Below are positions 878-18,605 of a stretch of 64,000 bases of DNA, piece after piece. A model generated the notes under the pieces. That model was not told where the DNA came from. It was given only the letters and a program-made list of their open reading frames with translations, and ran no database searches. Both the position numbers and the translations under genes were made by a program. The stretch lies in assembly GCF_030540825.1 (NCBI RefSeq), contig NZ_JAUOEO010000001.1:4105001-4169000 (forward strand), written 5' to 3'. Each line of letters opens with the position of its first letter. Positions within the stretch are counted from its first letter, which is position 1. This stretch comes from Flavivirga spongiicola. Its GTDB lineage: Bacteria > Bacteroidota > Bacteroidia > Flavobacteriales > Flavobacteriaceae.

Positions 878-1498
878 TTAAGCTTCTTTGGTATTGTTGC
901 TTCTTAATTCTTTTAAGTCTAGCATTTCTGGATCATATAAAGTATTGTCATAAACAAATACTTTACGAATTGTTTTAAAAAATATAGAGACATCATTAGA
1001 AAAAGATAATTTTTTGACATATTCTACATCTTTGGCTAGTTTATCATCCCAATTCAACAAATTTCTACCAGAAATTTGCGCCAAACCTGTTACTCCAGGC
1101 TTAACTGTATGTCTTATTTTCTCCTCAGTCGTATAATATGGGAGGTAGCGAACTCTTAACGGTCTGGGGCCAATTAAACTCATATCCCCCTTAATAATAT
1201 TAATTAATTGAGGAATTTCATCTAAAGATGTTTTTCTTATAAATGTGCCAAATTTAGTAACTCTGTCTGCATCAGGTAATAATATGCCATTTTCGTCCTT
1301 TTTATCGGTCATAGACTTGAATTTGATGATATTAAATATTTTTTCATCTTTACCTGGACGTCTTTGGTAAAAGAAAGGGTTTCCTTTATTAATAAATAAT
1401 AATATAAGGTAAACAATTATTCCAATTGGAGAGAGAACTATTAATCCAGTGAAAGCCAAAAAAAAGTCAATAATTCTTTTAAAAAAATTCTTGTACAT
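878..1498 (-). CDS. Small phosphoglycosyl transferase (bacterial sugar transferase, PglC-like)
   Basis: At 206 residues this is the minimal monotopic phosphoglycosyl transferase type (PglC, WcaJ C-terminal domain). It moves a phospho-sugar from a UDP-sugar to undecaprenyl phosphate and so starts repeat-unit synthesis on the inner membrane. A hydrophobic N-terminal re-entrant helix (residues 11-36) is followed by the basic QRRPG motif (46-49), the catalytic Asp-Glu pair in SLDEIPQ (93-94), IGPRPLR, and KPGVTGLAQISGRN. All family hallmarks are intact. A decayed copy of its first 46 codons lies at 2977-3116, upstream of the other ATP-grasp gene's relic partner. A TATTTTTG box sits at 1531-1538 on this strand. 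A second phosphoglycosyl transferase is encoded at 41763-42356, so which one starts the main polymer is unresolved. Confidence 0.92.
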   Translation of the reverse strand: MYKNFFKRIIDFFLAFTGLIVLSPIGIIVYLILLFINKGNPFFYQRRPGKDEKIFNIIKFKSMTDKKDENGILLPDADRVTKFGTFIRKTSLDEIPQLINIIKGDMSLIGPRPLRVRYLPYYTTEEKIRHTVKPGVTGLAQISGRNLLNWDDKLAKDVEYVKKLSFSNDVSIFFKTIRKVFVYDNTLYDPEMLDLKELRSNNTKEA

Positions 1499-1530
1499 TT
1501 TATCTTTAGTAGGTTATTGTTAAACAAACC

Positions 1531-1538
1531 CAAAAATA
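1531..1538 (-). promoter_or_regulatory. Candidate -7 box (TATTTTTG) for the sugar transferase
   Basis: On the minus strand this octamer matches the Bacteroidetes -7 consensus TAnnTTTG and lies about 33 nt before the ATG at 1498. No clear TTG was found at -33. In the decayed duplicate the final G of the box is A, so that copy would be weaker. Confidence 0.35.
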
Positions 1539-1559
1539 ATACTATCTGTGGCTTTTAAG

Positions 1560-1600
1560 TCATTATTACGTTCTTGTATGCTATTTTATCGATGAATGAT
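1560..1600 (-). repeat. 41-bp perfectly conserved repeat, copy 1
   Basis: These 41 bases recur without a mismatch at 3175-3215. The copy sits about 22 bp upstream of the candidate -7 box of the sugar-transferase gene. Similarity between the two intergenic regions stops abruptly beyond this element on the high-coordinate side. On the other side the two copies run on as a recognisable but mutated alignment into the sugar-transferase 5' end. It ends in TCATT and AATGA, a short inverted pair, and contains ATCGAT. It could be a regulator-binding site or an RNA leader element; function is unknown. Confidence 0.7.
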
Positions 1601-1742
1601 AAGGGGAGATATTTAAGATAATTTCAAGATATTGGTGTTTTATTTAAATATAGGGAAGTTTAAATGTTCTGCTACTTTTATATCAACAACGTAATTGGTT
1701 AACATTTAAGTTGTTATAGCTGATTTGGTTTTTCTAAAGGTT

Positions 1743-2780
1743 TTATGTTATATCTAGTATTTCTTTAAATAATGGATGTGTACAGTAGCCTCCATAACAA
1801 ACATCAGTAATGCTTAGGGTAGGTGTATTATTACCCTCAACGATAATTGGACCATTAAGAGTAATAGCAATGTCCCAACCAACTATTTTGTTAGGTAAAT
1901 GTTTTGCTGCTGTTTTAGCCAATTCACATGCTTCCATAAAAAAAGGTACTTTAAAATTTTCTAGCACGGCACCTGTATTTGGGTGTTTTGTAAATACTTT
2001 GGCTCCTTTATTGAAATCTTGCATTCCTATACCCTGAAGTACTCCAGTGGTCATGTTCACCGAAATATAAAATCCACCTGCGCTACCATTATCTATAACA
2101 CTATCTCCGATTCCAAAACGCATAACAACTGATAAGATATGAATGTTGTTTGCTAAATCTATATAAGTTTCTATTCTAAGCGTATTAACAGATTTTGAGT
2201 GAATTTTGTTTATTTCTAGATGTTGTTTAATTACTTCTTGATGAACAAAACTGTTAGCAAGTAAGAAGTCTGCATTGTTTTTTATTTGGTTTTTGAAAGT
2301 GTTTTTTTTTAAAAGTATCGCACCTTCTCCTCCTTCTAAATCCAAAAGTTTTAAGAAAAGGCTTTCTTGCTTGCTAGTTTCAAATATATTGTCAAAAAAA
2401 TCAATTAAATCTGATGTTTTCGTTATTGTGCTAATATCTTTATTGTAAACATAATTGTTTTTAAGATTATAGCTTACGAGCTCTGGAATAGGTAAATTAA
2501 AGTTTTTGAGATAAAAATTCATGCTTAATTTGTTACCTAAAATTGAGCTAATTTCTGAGAAGACTATGTTTTTTGATCGAATGACCTTTGTAAACTGTTT
2601 TAAACTTAAGTAATTAGTGTAATTCTTAATTTCTTTCCTATATAAAAACTTTCTGAAATAATCTGTAGGGAGTTCTTTTTTTACCCAAGCATAATGGATA
2701 ATCTCTTTTATCATTCTAAAAACCCCTTTTTTATTTGGGTCATTGATAAAATGTCTTAAATAAGTAATTTTCGAAATCAT
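1743..2780 (-). CDS. Sugar-transfer-associated ATP-grasp enzyme, copy 1
   Basis: The 345-residue product matches the sugar-transfer-associated ATP-grasp family, a relative of alpha-L-glutamate ligases found in polysaccharide loci. Visible family features are the RxFLYRKE segment near residue 45, the glycine-rich GGEGA loop near 150, IHSKSVNTLRIET near 192, and the C-terminal metal/ATP-binding GWDIAI...IIVEGN near 303-317. ATP-grasp enzymes join a carboxylate to an amine or similar nucleophile through an acyl phosphate, so attachment of an amino acid or acid to a sugar is plausible but unproven. A paralog at 3330-4370 is about half identical by eye. In the glycine loop this copy has LDLEGGEGA where the paralog has LDAQGGKGI, so the copies may differ in activity or substrate. 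The gene begins 16 bp after the relic glycosyltransferase end. Confidence 0.82.
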   Translation of the reverse strand: MISKITYLRHFINDPNKKGVFRMIKEIIHYAWVKKELPTDYFRKFLYRKEIKNYTNYLSLKQFTKVIRSKNIVFSEISSILGNKLSMNFYLKNFNLPIPELVSYNLKNNYVYNKDISTITKTSDLIDFFDNIFETSKQESLFLKLLDLEGGEGAILLKKNTFKNQIKNNADFLLANSFVHQEVIKQHLEINKIHSKSVNTLRIETYIDLANNIHILSVVMRFGIGDSVIDNGSAGGFYISVNMTTGVLQGIGMQDFNKGAKVFTKHPNTGAVLENFKVPFFMEACELAKTAAKHLPNKIVGWDIAITLNGPIIVEGNNTPTLSITDVCYGGYCTHPLFKEILDIT

Positions 2781-2796
2781 AATTATTATTTTTCAA

Positions 2797-2976
2797 TTAT
2801 AATTGATTATACTCTTCTAATATGGCTTTCCAAACACTTTTTTACTTACAATTTTTAAAAAATTCTCTCTGATTTTATTCTCGTTTCTTTTAATTTGTCA
2901 TTATTCGACAAAGTAAATTTCATGGTTTTGCATAATGAATCTACATGCTTTTTAGGAATTATCAAGCCATTGTATT
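2797..2976 (-). pseudogene. Relic 3' end of a GT4 glycosyltransferase gene
   Basis: Read leftward, this stretch encodes NGLIIPKKHVDSL and later VWKAILEEYNQL followed by a stop. These align with the last 58 residues of the intact glycosyltransferase at 4453-5613 (NGYIIPKKDTNSL and VWKAILSEYKEL). The two halves are in different frames and a TAA interrupts the first, so it cannot be translated as a unit. No glycosyltransferase sequence lies upstream of it; it abuts the sugar-transferase relic directly. This is what a partial tandem duplication with one endpoint inside the glycosyltransferase gene would leave. Confidence 0.85.
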
Positions 2977-3116
2977 ATCTGGTCATCTTTGATAAAAAAA
3001 TGAATTTTCTTTATTAATAAATATTAAGTAAACGCTCAAACCAATAGGGGCGAGCACTATTAATTCTGAGAATGTCAAAAAGAAGTCAATAATTCTTTTA
3101 AAAAATTCTCGTATGT
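2977..3116 (-). pseudogene. Relic 5' end of a sugar-transferase gene
   Basis: Read leftward, this encodes FFKRIIDFFLTFSELIVLAPIG and later NSFFYQR, aligning with residues 5-47 of the intact sugar transferase at 878-1498. The start ATG has become ACA (3114-3116), one T has been lost from the following T run, and the CGT codon of QRRPG has become a TGA stop (2983-2985). Similarity ends one or two codons later at the joint with the glycosyltransferase relic. It is the other half of the duplication joint. Confidence 0.85.
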
Positions 3117-3174
3117 TTTTATCTTTTGTAGGTACGTGATAAGACTAAAAATAATATTATTTGTGGTTTTTAAA

Positions 3175-3215
3175 TCATTATTACGTTCTTGTATGCTATT
3201 TTATCGATGAATGAT
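3175..3215 (-). repeat. 41-bp perfectly conserved repeat, copy 2
   Basis: Identical over 41 bases to 1560-1600. It lies upstream of the dead sugar-transferase relic, where it no longer appears to serve an intact gene, yet it carries no substitution while neighbouring sequence in both copies has many. Confidence 0.7.
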
Positions 3216-3329
3216 CGATTATAATGATTTATATTGAAATTTTTTCAGTATTTGTTTCAGTCACCTGAGAGTTAGTAATTTATAAATATTTTAATAATCT
3301 GTCTCTCGTTAAAATTAACATAGAATGGA

Positions 3330-4370
3330 CTATACCTCATTTAGCATTTCTTTAATCAAAGGATGTTTTAAATAACCGCCATATGCCACATCTGTCATAT
3401 CCATACCCGGAGTTTGATTACCTTCTATAATAACCGGTCCAGTAGGAGTAATGGCTACATCCCATCCAATAATTCTATTGGGTAAATATTGAGCTGCTTT
3501 TTTTGATAATTCGCAGGCTTCATTAAAAAATGGCACTTCAATTCCTTCAAGAATGATATTTGTATCGGGGTGTTTTTCATAAACTTGACTTCCTTGAGTA
3601 AAATCTTGTCGACCAACCCCTTGAATTAGACCAGTATCTAAATTCACAGAAACATAAAAGCCTCCTTTACTGGCATTATCAACAATATTGTTACCAACTC
3701 CAAAGCGTATAACAACAGATAAAACTTCCATGTTATTTTTATTATTCAAGCATGTTTCAATCCTTAATGTGTTAATCGATTTAGAATGTATTTTATTTAA
3801 AGAAGGATGTTGCTCAATGACTTCTTCATGCAAGAAACTTGTTTTAAGCAAGTTATTTAAATGTTTATTAATTTGCCCTTCCAGAGATTCTTTTTTAATT
3901 AAAAAAATACCTTTGCCACCTTGAGCATCTAAAGGTTTTAAAAAAAGCTCATTATATGGGCTTTTTTCAAAAACATTAGAGAAATAATCAATCAAATCAT
4001 TTTTATTGTTTATTGCATAGACATTATTATCAAAATAAAAATGGTTTTTCAAATTATAACTTACCAATTTTGGCATTGGTAAGTGTATACTTGAAAAATA
4101 AGAATGCATACTTAGCTTATTGTCTAGAATAGAACTAATTTCTGGAAAAACCATTTTTTTTGAAAAAATAAGCTTCTCGTATTGCCTATAACCTAAATAG
4201 GCTGTATAGTTTTTAACCTCTTTTCTATATAGAAATCTTCTAAAATAGTCCAGTGGTAATTCTTTTTTAACATACCAAAAATGAATTATTTCTATGAACA
4301 TTCTTCCCCAACCTTTTTTATTAGGGTCGCTAAAGAAAAATTTAAAATTACCAATTCTTTTAAGTGACAT
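3330..4370 (-). CDS. Sugar-transfer-associated ATP-grasp enzyme, copy 2
   Basis: The 346-residue product is a paralog of 1743-2780 with the same layout: DPNKKG near residue 15, RRFLYRKE near 44, a glycine loop LDAQGGKGI near 150, IHSKSINTLRIET near 192 and GWDVAI...VIIEGN near 303-317. The lysine in this loop (GGKG) is closer to the usual ATP-grasp phosphate loop than the GGEG of copy 1. It lies 82 bp downstream of the intact GT4 gene, so this copy keeps the original upstream neighbour, while copy 1 keeps the original downstream neighbour, the sugar transferase. It probably ligates an amino acid or other acid to a sugar or glycan intermediate (family-level inference). Confidence 0.83.
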   Translation of the reverse strand: MSLKRIGNFKFFFSDPNKKGWGRMFIEIIHFWYVKKELPLDYFRRFLYRKEVKNYTAYLGYRQYEKLIFSKKMVFPEISSILDNKLSMHSYFSSIHLPMPKLVSYNLKNHFYFDNNVYAINNKNDLIDYFSNVFEKSPYNELFLKPLDAQGGKGIFLIKKESLEGQINKHLNNLLKTSFLHEEVIEQHPSLNKIHSKSINTLRIETCLNNKNNMEVLSVVIRFGVGNNIVDNASKGGFYVSVNLDTGLIQGVGRQDFTQGSQVYEKHPDTNIILEGIEVPFFNEACELSKKAAQYLPNRIIGWDVAITPTGPVIIEGNQTPGMDMTDVAYGGYLKHPLIKEMLNEV

Positions 4371-4452
4371 ACTCTTTTGAATTAATATTATTAATTTAGA
4401 CGCTCATCATTATGATGGATAGTTTCTTTATAACTTAGAGTTTTTTATTCAT

Positions 4453-5613
4453 CTAGAGTTCTTTATACTCGCTCAGTATAGCTTTCCAAACATTTTTTTG
4501 CTCATAGTTTTCCAAGATAATCTTTCTCGATTTTTGCCCCATTTCTTTTAATCTGCCATTATTTGACAAAGTAGATTTCATTGACTCATATAGCGAGTTT
4601 GTATCCTTTTTGGGGATTATATAACCGTTTTCATTATGTTTGATTATTTCATTACATCCATTTATATCTGTAACAATACAGGCTAGCTCCATAGAGCTTG
4701 CTTGCATGACAACATTAGGAAATCCTTCTCTATAACTCGGGAATGCTAAAACGTTCGATATAGAAAAGTAAGGTCTTACATCATTGGTCCAACCAGTTTC
4801 AATTATATTAGTATTGGCTTCAATTAGTTTTGTTGTTTCTGAAAATAATGGGTCTAACTCCTTTTCGTAATTGCCAACTAAAATTAATTTTATATTATCA
4901 AAACTTTTGTTTAAATTATCAAAGGCCTCAACGAGTTCATTAATTCCCTTATCTTTAACTAGTCTGCCTACAAAAATAAACACAAAATCGTTTTCTTTTA
5001 TTTTTAAAGAATCTCTTAATGATTTTTTTTGTAATTGATTATAAAGTTTTGGGTCAAAATGATTTGTGTCAATACCATTAGAACTACCTTTTGCAATAAC
5101 CTCTATTTTTGATTTTTTAGCTAACTTTTCGTTTAACATAATTTCTCTTAGACCAAATGAATTTGGATATACTTTGGTAGCGCAGAAATAGGTTAGCTTG
5201 TCAACATAAACAAGTAATTTTTTTTTAAACCCTTTAGCTTCTACTAATGGTAATCCCGCAACTGTATGAAGTCTGTTAGGTACTTTTGCCAATTTCGCAG
5301 CAATCATTCCTACTGTTCCTGCCTTTGGGGTATGAGAATGAACGATATATGGTTTTTCTTTTTTTAATATTTTATACAATTTAGTAACGGCCATTAAATC
5401 TTTTATTGGAGTAATTTTTCTTGTCATCTCCAGATTAATTGTCCTAACACCTTCATTTTTCGCTAGTATTTCTAATTGATTTTTATTTCCCTTTGAAGAT
5501 ACTCCAACAACCTCAAAATATTGCGAAATATATTTTAACTGACCTTTTAGTAAGGTTGTTAATGACCCAGGAACAGTTGTTATTCTAAATATTTTTTTCT
5601 TATCCTTATTCAT
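4453..5613 (-). CDS. GT4-family glycosyltransferase (CapM/WbpT-like)
   Basis: A 386-residue GT-B fold glycosyltransferase. The N-terminal domain has the family stretch HSHTPKAG near residue 92. The C-terminal domain has FVGRLVKDKGI and REGFPNVVMQASSMELACIV followed by DINGCNEII. The usual second glutamate of the E-x7-E motif is a glutamine here, a form I also associate with capsule GT4 enzymes of Bacteroidetes, so it is not evidence of inactivity. It acts at the cytoplasmic face of the inner membrane, adding a sugar to the lipid-linked repeat. Its start overlaps the end of the upstream amidotransferase gene by 8 bp, indicating translational coupling. Its last 58 codons are duplicated as a relic at 2797-2976. 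Confidence 0.9.
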   Translation of the reverse strand: MNKDKKKIFRITTVPGSLTTLLKGQLKYISQYFEVVGVSSKGNKNQLEILAKNEGVRTINLEMTRKITPIKDLMAVTKLYKILKKEKPYIVHSHTPKAGTVGMIAAKLAKVPNRLHTVAGLPLVEAKGFKKKLLVYVDKLTYFCATKVYPNSFGLREIMLNEKLAKKSKIEVIAKGSSNGIDTNHFDPKLYNQLQKKSLRDSLKIKENDFVFIFVGRLVKDKGINELVEAFDNLNKSFDNIKLILVGNYEKELDPLFSETTKLIEANTNIIETGWTNDVRPYFSISNVLAFPSYREGFPNVVMQASSMELACIVTDINGCNEIIKHNENGYIIPKKDTNSLYESMKSTLSNNGRLKEMGQKSRKIILENYEQKNVWKAILSEYKEL

Positions 5614-15938: not shown

Positions 15939-17219
15939 TTACAGCCTTCCGTTAACTTTTTCTTTAATAATTCCTTTAACATCATATACCAAGCCGTTTT
16001 CGCTTAACAGACTGTTAAAATTCATATTAAGAAATTCCGAATGGGCAACACCTAAAATGACAGTTTCAAACGGACCTTTTGGTAGAGTATTAGTAGCTTC
16101 TAAATTATACTCGTGTAGAACTTCTTCCGAATTTACCCAAGGGTCATAAATAGTAATATCTAGCCCATATTCTTTTAAATGCTTAATAACGTCAACGATC
16201 TTAGTATTTCTAACATCAGGACAATTTTCCTTAAAAGTTATACCAAGCATAAGTATTTTGGCTCCATTTACTTTGATATCGTTTTTAAGCATCATTTTTA
16301 CTACTTCGCTTGCTACGTATTGCCCCATGCTATCATTTACACGTCTACCTGCCAAAATAATTTCTGGATGATATCCAACCTCTTGAGCTTTTTGAGCTAA
16401 ATAGTAGGGGTCTACACCAATACAATGTCCTCCAACTAGCCCCGGTTTAAAAGGTAGGAAATTCCATTTTGTACCTGCAGCTTCTAAAACAGAATGCGTG
16501 TCAATATCCATTAAATTGAATATTTTAGCTAACTCATTTACAAACGCAATATTGATATCACGTTGAGAATTTTCTATAACTTTTGCCGCTTCAGCAACTT
16601 TTATAGTAGGAGCAAGGTGAGTACCCGCAGTAATAACATCAGCGTATAAGTTATTAACTTTTATACCAATCTCTGGAGTTGATCCAGCTGTTACTTTTAA
16701 TATCTTATCTACAGTATGTTCTTTATCTCCAGGATTAATACGTTCAGGTGAATATCCTGCGAAGAAATCAGCGTTGAATTTAAGGCCGCTTATTTTTTCT
16801 AAAATAGGAACACACTCATCTTCAGTTACACCAGGGTATACAGTTGATTCATAAATCACTATATCTCCCTTTTTAAGAACTTTTGCAACTGTTTCACTAG
16901 ATTTATACAAAGGTGTTAAATCTGGTCTGTTATTTTTATCGATGGGTGTAGGAACCGTTACAATATAATAGTTGCAATTTTTTATGTCATCAATATTTGA
17001 CGAGCAATATAAACCGTCTCTAGAATCAGCACTATCTTTTAGTACTCCTTTTAAAACATCATCTTCAATTTCTAAAGTCGCGTCTTTTCCTTGCTGTAAT
17101 TCAGAAATTCGCTTTTCATTAATATCAAAACCAACAACTGAATATTTTGTTGCGAATAATCGAGCTAATGGTAGGCCTACATACCCTAATCCTATAATTG
17201 CTATTTTTTCTTTATTCAT
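15939..17219 (-). CDS. UDP-N-acetylhexosamine 6-dehydrogenase (WbpA/TviB/WecC family)
   Basis: This 426-residue NAD-dependent nucleotide-sugar dehydrogenase begins with the Rossmann motif IGLGYVGLPLA (residues 9-19). It carries TVPTPIDKNNRPDLTPL near 95, ESTVYPGVTED near 126 and the catalytic-cysteine motif GLVGGHCIGVDPYYLA near 258. The TVPTPI and VYPGVTE forms are those of WbpA/TviB-type enzymes acting on UDP-GlcNAc or UDP-GalNAc, rather than of UDP-glucose dehydrogenases. With the WbpP-like epimerase at 18610-19605 it would give UDP-GalNAcA, as in the Vi-antigen TviB/TviC pair. UDP-ManNAc as substrate (WecC) cannot be excluded, but no 2-epimerase was seen. Confidence 0.87.
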   Translation of the reverse strand: MNKEKIAIIGLGYVGLPLARLFATKYSVVGFDINEKRISELQQGKDATLEIEDDVLKGVLKDSADSRDGLYCSSNIDDIKNCNYYIVTVPTPIDKNNRPDLTPLYKSSETVAKVLKKGDIVIYESTVYPGVTEDECVPILEKISGLKFNADFFAGYSPERINPGDKEHTVDKILKVTAGSTPEIGIKVNNLYADVITAGTHLAPTIKVAEAAKVIENSQRDINIAFVNELAKIFNLMDIDTHSVLEAAGTKWNFLPFKPGLVGGHCIGVDPYYLAQKAQEVGYHPEIILAGRRVNDSMGQYVASEVVKMMLKNDIKVNGAKILMLGITFKENCPDVRNTKIVDVIKHLKEYGLDITIYDPWVNSEEVLHEYNLEATNTLPKGPFETVILGVAHSEFLNMNFNSLLSENGLVYDVKGIIKEKVNGRL

Positions 17220-17225
17220 AATATT

Positions 17226-18605
17226 TTATTTACCAATTGAAGAATATTCAAAACCTATTTTCTCCATTTCTGACTTGTCTAATATATTTCTACCATCGAA
17301 TATAAACGCAGGCTTTTTCATTTCTGTGTATATTCTTTTCCAATCATAAGTTTTAAACTCATCCCATTCTGTCATAATAGCTACAGCATGCGCATCTTTT
17401 AAGGCTTCGTAAGGGGTTTCCGTAGCTTTGACTAGTTTGCTGTTTTCTTCTTCAGACCTTGTATTTAAATAGTTTAAATCAGACTGCATTTTTTCATTAG
17501 AGACTTTAGGGTCGTAAACAACAACATTAGCTTGTTCGTTTAATAAATGATCGGCAACATAAATCGCTGCAGATTCTCTCGTATCATTAGTGTCCTTTTT
17601 AAAAGCCCAGCCTAAAAAACCAATTTTCTTTCCAGAAACTGTATTGTAAAGAGTGCTTATTAAATGATCTGAAAAACGTCTTTTTTGGTGGTCATTTAAA
17701 ATAATTACTTGCTCCCAATAATCGGCAACAGCTTGTAAGTTATAGCTTCTTGCGATATAAACAAGGTTCAAAATATCTTTTTGAAAGCAAGAACCTCCAA
17801 AACCAACAGATGCTTTAAGGAATTTGGGACCAATTCTAGAATCCATACCTATTGCTTTAGCTACTTCATTAACATCAGCCTCGGTTTGTTCACATAGTTC
17901 AGATATTGCATTAATTGAAGATATACGTTGCGCTAAAAAGGCATTAGCTGTTAGCTTCGATAACTCTGATGACCAAACATTTGTTCTTAATATTTTGTCT
18001 TGAGAAACCCAACTACCATAAATATTCGCTAAACTTTCAATAGCATCTTCGGACGCTCCGCCGATTAATACCCTGTCTGGGTTTAATAAATCTTGAATAG
18101 CAGTTCCTTCAGCTAAAAATTCTGGGTTTGATAAAATTTCAAAATTAACATCACTACCGGTATTGTCTAATATACTTTTAATGGCTTGTGCTGTTCTTAC
18201 AGGTAAGGTTGATTTTTCAACCACAATTTTATCTGTTGTAGCAACCTTGGCTATATTTCTAGCACAAAGTTCTACATATTTTAAATCAGCAGCCATCCCC
18301 TTACCTTTACCATAAGTTTTGGTAGGTGTGTTTACCGATATAAAAATCATTTGAGATTCATCAATAGCTTTGTCAATCTCAGTAGAAAAGAACAGGTTTT
18401 TTCCTCTAGTCTCTTTTACTATTTCTGCTAAACCCGGTTCATAGATAGGTAGCTTAGATAGATCATTATCGTTCCATGCTGCAATTCGATCTGCATTAAT
18501 ATCAACAATAGTTACTTTAATATCTGGGTTTTTCTTGGCAATTACAGCCATTGTAGGCCCCCCAACATATCCTGCGCCAATGCAGCAGATTTTTGTAATT
18601 TTCAT
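17226..18605 (-). CDS. ugd: UDP-glucose 6-dehydrogenase
   Basis: The 459-residue protein oxidises UDP-glucose twice to UDP-glucuronate. It starts with [20 protein letters not shown] (residues 8-27) and has LPIYEPGL near 52, [17 protein letters not shown] near 92, STLPVRTA near 132, [10 protein letters not shown] near 160 and the catalytic-cysteine motif [10 protein letters not shown] near 268. This longer form resembles the eukaryotic-type UGDH rather than the short bacterial Ugd. It lies 6 bp from the neighbouring dehydrogenase gene and 4 bp from the epimerase gene, so the cassette is tightly coupled. Its product feeds the 4-epimerase at 19749-20771. Confidence 0.93.

Follow-up and report, generated by a model that had tools for sequence, protein, structure and literature searches.

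The stretch of DNA analysed here is a 64,000-nt window of Flavivirga spongiicola (contig NZ_JAUOEO010000001.1, positions 4,105,001 to 4,169,000 of the forward strand), and all coordinates without a locus handle are those of the window. It carries a surface-polysaccharide locus in which two intact genes for sugar-transfer associated ATP-grasp proteins, ATP1 and ATP2, are separated by decayed ends of two other genes. The order on the minus strand is a GT4 glycosyltransferase gene (5613-4453), ATP2 (4370-3330), the relic region, ATP1 (2780-1743), and a sugar transferase gene (ST; 1498-878). The relic region consists of the leader plus 5' part of an ST gene (3215 to 2975, read leftward) fused to the 3' part of a GT4 gene (2978 to 2786). 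The features of the locus are as follows.

878-1498, minus strand: ST, intact sugar transferase gene, 206 aa, Pfam PF02397 (Bac_transf).
1499-1601, minus strand: leader of the intact ST, with a conserved element (1560-1600) and a promoter-like TATTTTTG.
1602-1742, no strand: spacer from the ATP1 stop to the ST leader, unlike the ATP2 spacer (stretch tested, 1601-1742).
1743-2780, minus strand: ATP1, intact gene for a sugar-transfer associated ATP-grasp protein, 345 aa, PF14397.
2786-2978, minus strand: GT4 3' relic, approximately codons 326-386, with indels and CAA to TAA.
2975-2978, no strand: chimeric joint, 4 nt common to both alignments.
2975-3116, minus strand: ST 5' relic, approximately codons 1-50, with the start ATG changed to ACA, CGT to TGA, and indels.
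3117-3215, minus strand: relic ST leader, non-coding; 65 of 69 nt identical across 3147-3215.
3216-3329, no strand: spacer from the ATP2 stop to the relic leader, unlike 1601-1742.
3330-4370, minus strand: ATP2, intact gene for a sugar-transfer associated ATP-grasp protein, 346 aa, PF14397.
4453-5613, minus strand: GT4, intact glycosyltransferase gene, 386 aa, PF00534/PF13692.

The relic region and the intact genes form direct repeats at a spacing of 1615-1658 nt, in which 1350-1600 corresponds to 2975-3215 (ST 5' end and leader) and 2786-2971 corresponds to 4442-4629 (GT4 3' end). In local alignments, the region between the ATP-grasp genes scored 78 against GT4 and 140 against ST, and the maxima in 200 dinucleotide shuffles were 23 and 24, respectively. 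When the region was tested piecewise, the ST 5' end, the leader, and the GT4 3' end scored 76, 66, and 74, and none of 500 shuffles matched any of these scores. GT4 upstream of the joint showed no similarity to the ST side (158 of 500 shuffles reached the score), nor did ST past the joint show similarity to the GT4 side (431 of 500). Since similarity was absent past the joint on either side, there is one joint, located at 2975-2978; the 4-nt overlap agrees with GT4 at 4/4 and with ST at 3/4 positions. A sequence-only reading of this DNA had proposed this gene order with a single chimeric joint at about 2976, and the repeats, the alignments, and the piecewise tests bear it out, the order of the similarities fitting a single joint. 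The lesions it listed were all present in the alignments: the start ATG to ACA (3114-3116), CGT to TGA at ST codon 47, and a frameshift and a stop in the relics, both of which carry several indels or frameshifts, with CAA to TAA at codon 372 in the GT4 relic. It had recognised the two gene ends correctly, and its coordinates require only a slight adjustment; the ST side includes ca. 100 nt of leader up to 3215, and the GT4 side extends to approximately 2786, 5 nt short of the ATP1 start.

In their coding parts, the relics show 19-28% difference from the intact copies, in addition to indels. Relic-specific changes at codon positions 1, 2, and 3 amounted to 14/105, 9/108, and 14/105, which is uniform (p = 0.46), whereas intact-specific changes numbered 8, 7, and 21, with an excess at third positions (p = 0.001). 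This test used 26 outgroup genes each for GT4 and ST, the former including the interrupted GT4 of Aquimarina agarivorans described below. Restricting the outgroups to those with at least 62% identity (9 for GT4 and 4 for ST) gave relic-specific counts of 8, 6, 5 and 7, 4, 7. Because the relic-specific changes are even across the codon positions, the relics look like fairly recent copies decaying without constraint. The idea that the flanks had diverged for a long time as working genes before the joint formed was dropped on the same evidence. In a DNA tree of 24 rows, the GT4 relic clustered with the intact GT4 at 97/79, as it had at 93/81 in an earlier 17-row tree, from which the 24-row tree was made by removing the A. 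agarivorans GT4 (interrupted before its 3' end) and adding 8 rows. Constraining the ST relic and the intact ST to group together was not rejected (approximately unbiased [AU] test, p = 0.458).

At third codon positions, the relics diverge from the intact copies by 0.34 (GT4) and 0.30 (ST), and the Nei-Gojobori (NG86) synonymous divergence (dS) was 1.08 and 0.74, respectively. ATP1 and ATP2, whose proteins are 56% identical across 342 residues, diverge by 0.53 at third positions, with an NG86 dS of 2.9. The numbers of differing third positions, ca. 183 of 345 for the ATP-grasp pair (a rounding of 0.53 x 345) versus 35 of 104 for the relics, differed significantly (Fisher p = 0.0005). The ST and GT4 segments are not intrinsically slow, because third positions diverged by 0.51 between ST codons 2-50 and Algibacter marinivivus and by 0.49-0.64 between the last 61 GT4 codons and four relatives. 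Third positions of the window genes GT4c, GT4b, AsnB, and ST differ from those of A. marinivivus by 0.43-0.52, and on this scale the scar looks younger, and the split of the ATP-grasp genes as old or older.

The phylogeny of the two ATP-grasp genes did not pair them with each other. ATP2 was sister to the relative P0002 (68% identity), with support of 100/98, 100/97, and 99/96 in trees of 70, 35, and 31 rows, and ATP1 was sister to P0004 (65%), with support of 96/88, 82/76, and 80/84. The exact partner of ATP1 is thus moderately supported, while its position outside the ATP2 clade is strongly supported. Forcing ATP1 and ATP2 to be sisters cost 56 log units and was rejected (35 rows; AU p = 0.0006); they were sisters in 0 of 200 bootstrap trees with 35 rows and in 0 of 200 with 70 rows, nor were they sisters in the 31-row tree, where the relations were taken from the drawn tree. 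As a control, the tandem ATP-grasp pair of Flavivirga rizhaonensis was resolved as sisters (100/100), indicating that tandem duplication does occur in Flavivirga and that the method recognises it. A search for recent conversion of ATP1 by ATP2 or the reverse gave no sign of it; their longest identical run was 11 nt, which was equalled or exceeded in 1976 of 2000 codon shuffles. Derived residues shared by the copies, as compared with the relatives available as proteins, were too few for ordering the splits.

The spacers were also examined. The two stretches from an ATP-grasp stop codon to an ST leader showed no similarity (score 9, equalled or exceeded in 497 of 500 shuffles), and among 1000 simulated spacers only 1 at 30% divergence and 3 at 35% aligned as poorly. 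Spacers as old as the relics would still be expected to align, yet these two are unrelated. The gap between GT4 and ATP2 is 82 nt, and that between the GT4 relic and ATP1 is ca. 5 nt. Homology ends near the edges of the ATP-grasp blocks, at about 2786/4442 and 1600/3215, as expected for an allele difference and not for a copy. Taken together, the older third positions, the rejected sisterhood, and the unrelated spacers indicate that the ATP-grasp alleles most likely diverged before the joint formed, or that one was replaced afterwards.

Relatives of the locus were sought among the genomes of the family. A search with an alignment of ATP-grasp relatives gave matches in 32 of 397 family genomes (E <= 1e-80); a scan of genome contigs with a single sequence yielded no relative, and an alignment-based scan yielded 17 loci. 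A. marinivivus is collinear with the window at ca. 73% from 9985 to 5616 (GT4c, GT4b, and AsnB) and at 74% from 1602 (ST leader onwards) to the window end; between these blocks it has a different glycosyltransferase, one ATP-grasp gene belonging to the ATP2 clade, and a PaaK-like gene. The order GT4, one ATP-grasp gene, a PaaK-like gene, other genes or none, and ST was seen in 11 of 26 drawn gene maps. The listed relatives from Flaviramulus aquimarinus show 73% (GT4) and 85% (ST) identity, a further GT4 relative (P0121, on a 20.6-kb contig) shows 96%, and P0002, P0003, P0004, and P0005 were compared as proteins, without gene context. In F. rizhaonensis (genome G007, locus L024, 7863-9890), adjacent sister ATP-grasp genes, one of them with an internal TGA, lie downstream of a GT4 homologue. 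In another Flavivirga genome (G008; L025, 4660-8786), GT4 and ST bracket two adjacent, very different ATP-grasp genes with 37% and 45% identity to ATP2 (for the first, the match covers just its second half); loci with two ATP-grasp genes thus recur, and this pair, too, did not arise by recent copying. When 43 other loci (some representing one place fetched twice) were scanned outside open frames of at least 150 codons at E <= 1e-4, no further ST or GT4 relic of such kind was found; the sole matches were ATP-grasp pieces (F. rizhaonensis L024 and L038, which are one locus, and L083) and the end of a GT4 gene at L042.

The last of these belongs to Aquimarina agarivorans, in which the final 93 codons of the GT4 homologue (L042, 7657-7935) fall outside that gene's long open frame, immediately before an ATP-grasp gene; this GT4 is either a frameshifted gene or a sequencing error. 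Adjacent non-sister ATP-grasp pairs, of the same two types in both cases, were observed in another type of locus (L027, 7416-9547, in G002; L029, 7544-9707, in G010). In A. mikhailovii (G256; L113, 9148-12065), GT4 and ST are separated by a gap of ca. 2.9 kb with no listed open frame of more than 109 codons, and neither an ATP-grasp nor a PaaK match was found there at E below 0.1.

One illegitimate joint, formed between two alleles of the same surface-polysaccharide locus, accounts most simply for the joint observed, the decay of the relics, the age discordance, and the discordant tree of the ATP-grasp genes, and we consider this account probable. The course of events was hypothesised as described below. 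Two alleles, GT4 - ATP-grasp a - ST and GT4 - ATP-grasp b - ST, would have met, one resident and the other incoming. At that time, their GT4 3' ends and ST leaders would have been closely similar, with ATP-grasp blocks that were already old and different. One microhomology-type joint would then have connected ST codon ca. 50 of one allele to GT4 codon ca. 326 of the other. GT4 and ST would each have survived as a single intact copy alongside both ATP-grasp genes, with the severed ends of the other GT4 and ST copies decaying thereafter. The incoming nature of the partner allele is inferred, as is a single event in place of a duplication plus replacement of one ATP-grasp gene.

Several observations weigh against this account. 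The relics are short, with ca. 104 usable codons, and the codon-position patterns of relic and intact copies, each as expected when taken singly, showed no significant difference (p = 0.10). The placement of the GT4 relic carries no star in the 24-row tree, whose bootstrap support was not fully settled, and the best tree separates the ST relic from the intact ST, although 62% of bootstraps unite them. With divergence set at 40%, 27 of 1000 simulated spacers gave alignments no better than the observed one. For the spacer before the ATP-grasp start, 20 nt of the relic copy were tested, and the score was reached in 53 of 500 shuffles. Gene conversion between the relics and the intact flanks could make the flanks appear younger than the joint. 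Furthermore, loci with a single ATP-grasp gene were retrieved, none of them with an ATP1- or ATP2-type allele between the same GT4 and ST, and the present data do not separate one event from a duplication followed by replacement.

This last sequence of events is the main rival, to which we assign a clearly lower, though not trivial, likelihood. A segment consisting of the GT4 3' end, an ATP-grasp gene, and the ST 5' end would have been duplicated in place, after which a divergent allele would have replaced one ATP-grasp gene with its spacers through homologous recombination in the flanks. Such a history agrees with the in-place decay of the relics, which resemble fairly young copies, and with homology that ends near the edges of the ATP-grasp block on both sides. 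It needs, however, two events where one suffices, and its intermediate state was found in no strain seen.

The explanation given by the sequence-only reading, in which a simple tandem duplication made both ATP-grasp genes and these diverged while the gene ends decayed, is less likely still and appears improbable. It predicts the order A - B - [C5'|A3'] - B' - C and only one joint, as observed, and in this respect the geometry, the decaying ends, and the extra intact ATP-grasp gene all stand. The claim that one event copied an ATP-grasp gene into two is not supported: the parts do not look to be of one age, the pair appearing older than the relics by third positions; sisterhood of ATP1 and ATP2 was rejected; the spacers between the ATP-grasp stop codons and the leaders are unrelated; and the collinear A. 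marinivivus has a single ATP-grasp gene, of the ATP2 clade. A simple duplication survives only if it was old, if a copy was lost or passed on in several lineages, and if the flanks were kept young by conversion.

The ST leader bears on a further explanation. A 41-nt element is identical in the intact (1560-1600) and relic (3175-3215) leaders; with the neighbouring difference of 19-28%, the chance of such an unchanged run is ca. 1e-4 (0.8^41), before allowing for position. With up to 3 mismatches allowed, a 32-nt stretch of the element has two occurrences in the genome. Of 397 family genomes, 1 matched a 30-nt pattern derived from the element, namely A. marinivivus, upstream of ST. A looser version is present upstream of ST in A. 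mikhailovii. The homology with A. marinivivus starts at 1602, and the homologous stretches of the intact, relic, and A. marinivivus ST regions begin within 2 nt of one leader base. This shared starting point would suit the insertion of an ATP-grasp cassette at the element by a mobile element or site-specific recombinase, which we nevertheless regard as very unlikely. The joint sits inside coding sequence, away from the element; the 32-nt stretch has no more than two genomic occurrences; the 18 proteins scanned with Pfam (two of which had no match at all) included no named transposase or recombinase; and the position of the element upstream of ST in the two relatives is as expected of a leader. 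The reading of the element as a recombinase site was dropped on these grounds. Chance similarity or an assembly artefact, in favour of which nothing was found, is practically negligible, since no shuffle reached any of the three piecewise scores and the divergence and indels of the relic coding parts do not fit a misassembled copy.

In the intact leader, the element is followed by TATTTTTG, which agrees with the flavobacterial -7 box consensus TAnnTTTG given in the available part of the source (PMC9723704); the relic leader has TATTTTTA instead. The 41-nt element is possibly an operator for the initiating sugar transferase. It is possible that the relic leader was retained as a control of ATP1, the alternative being a recent conversion. 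The combined proposal that one microhomology joint between rival alleles made the operon with two ATP-grasp genes in one step, possibly yielding a new polymer decoration, and that the relic leader was kept as the control region of ATP1 is put forward only tentatively.

Both ATP-grasp proteins exceed the gathering score of PF14397 (ATPgrasp_ST; 31.4) with 143.1 (ATP1) and 163.6 (ATP2) bits, and no difference in family was seen between them. Of the 38 columns invariant in at least 95% of 118 other listed relatives, ATP1 retains 37 and ATP2 36. Judging from family membership, both are probably working enzymes that modify a sugar or polymer by ATP-dependent ligation. A literature search with the full name of the family as a phrase returned nothing on the biochemical role of PF14397, and the literature matches listed included no direct study of the ATP-grasp family or of Flavivirga polysaccharides. 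The genes upstream were assigned by Pfam to Wzy_C, two UDP-sugar dehydrogenases, epimerases, an MBOAT acyltransferase, and GT2, and the locus is therefore taken to be a surface-polysaccharide locus, for which 'capsule' seems a reasonable label. Two neighbouring genes of the UDP-glucose/GDP-mannose dehydrogenase family were noted in the same polysaccharide operon (15939-18605).

The Flavivirga scar is real and of a known kind, its precedent being galE1/galE2 of the meningococcal cps locus. According to the available part of that report (PMC5349592), Regions D and D' carry an intact galE1 and a truncated galE2, the truncated remnant groups with a different allele, and illegitimate recombination with an incoming island was proposed. 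Truncated flank genes next to intact copies are common to both systems. As far as the available text describes it (PMC5349592), the meningococcal case left one gene end in an inverted repeat, whereas in Flavivirga two ends are fused head to tail and a second ATP-grasp gene was gained. Among the literature matches listed, nothing closer than PMC5349592 was found for capsule-locus remnants. The F. rizhaonensis pair resembles the window in having two adjacent ATP-grasp genes of the same group in the same kind of polysaccharide locus, but these are true sisters, one with a TGA inside, and no GT4 or ST relic was detected there.

A fused relic of this kind can be dated part by part. Since the scar here looks younger than the genes that bracket it, an arrangement resembling a textbook tandem duplication is better explained by the combination of two old alleles. 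If confirmed in sister strains, the finding would mean that polysaccharide loci could gain a second modifying enzyme through one recombination step, and it would caution against inferring paralogues from gene order alone.

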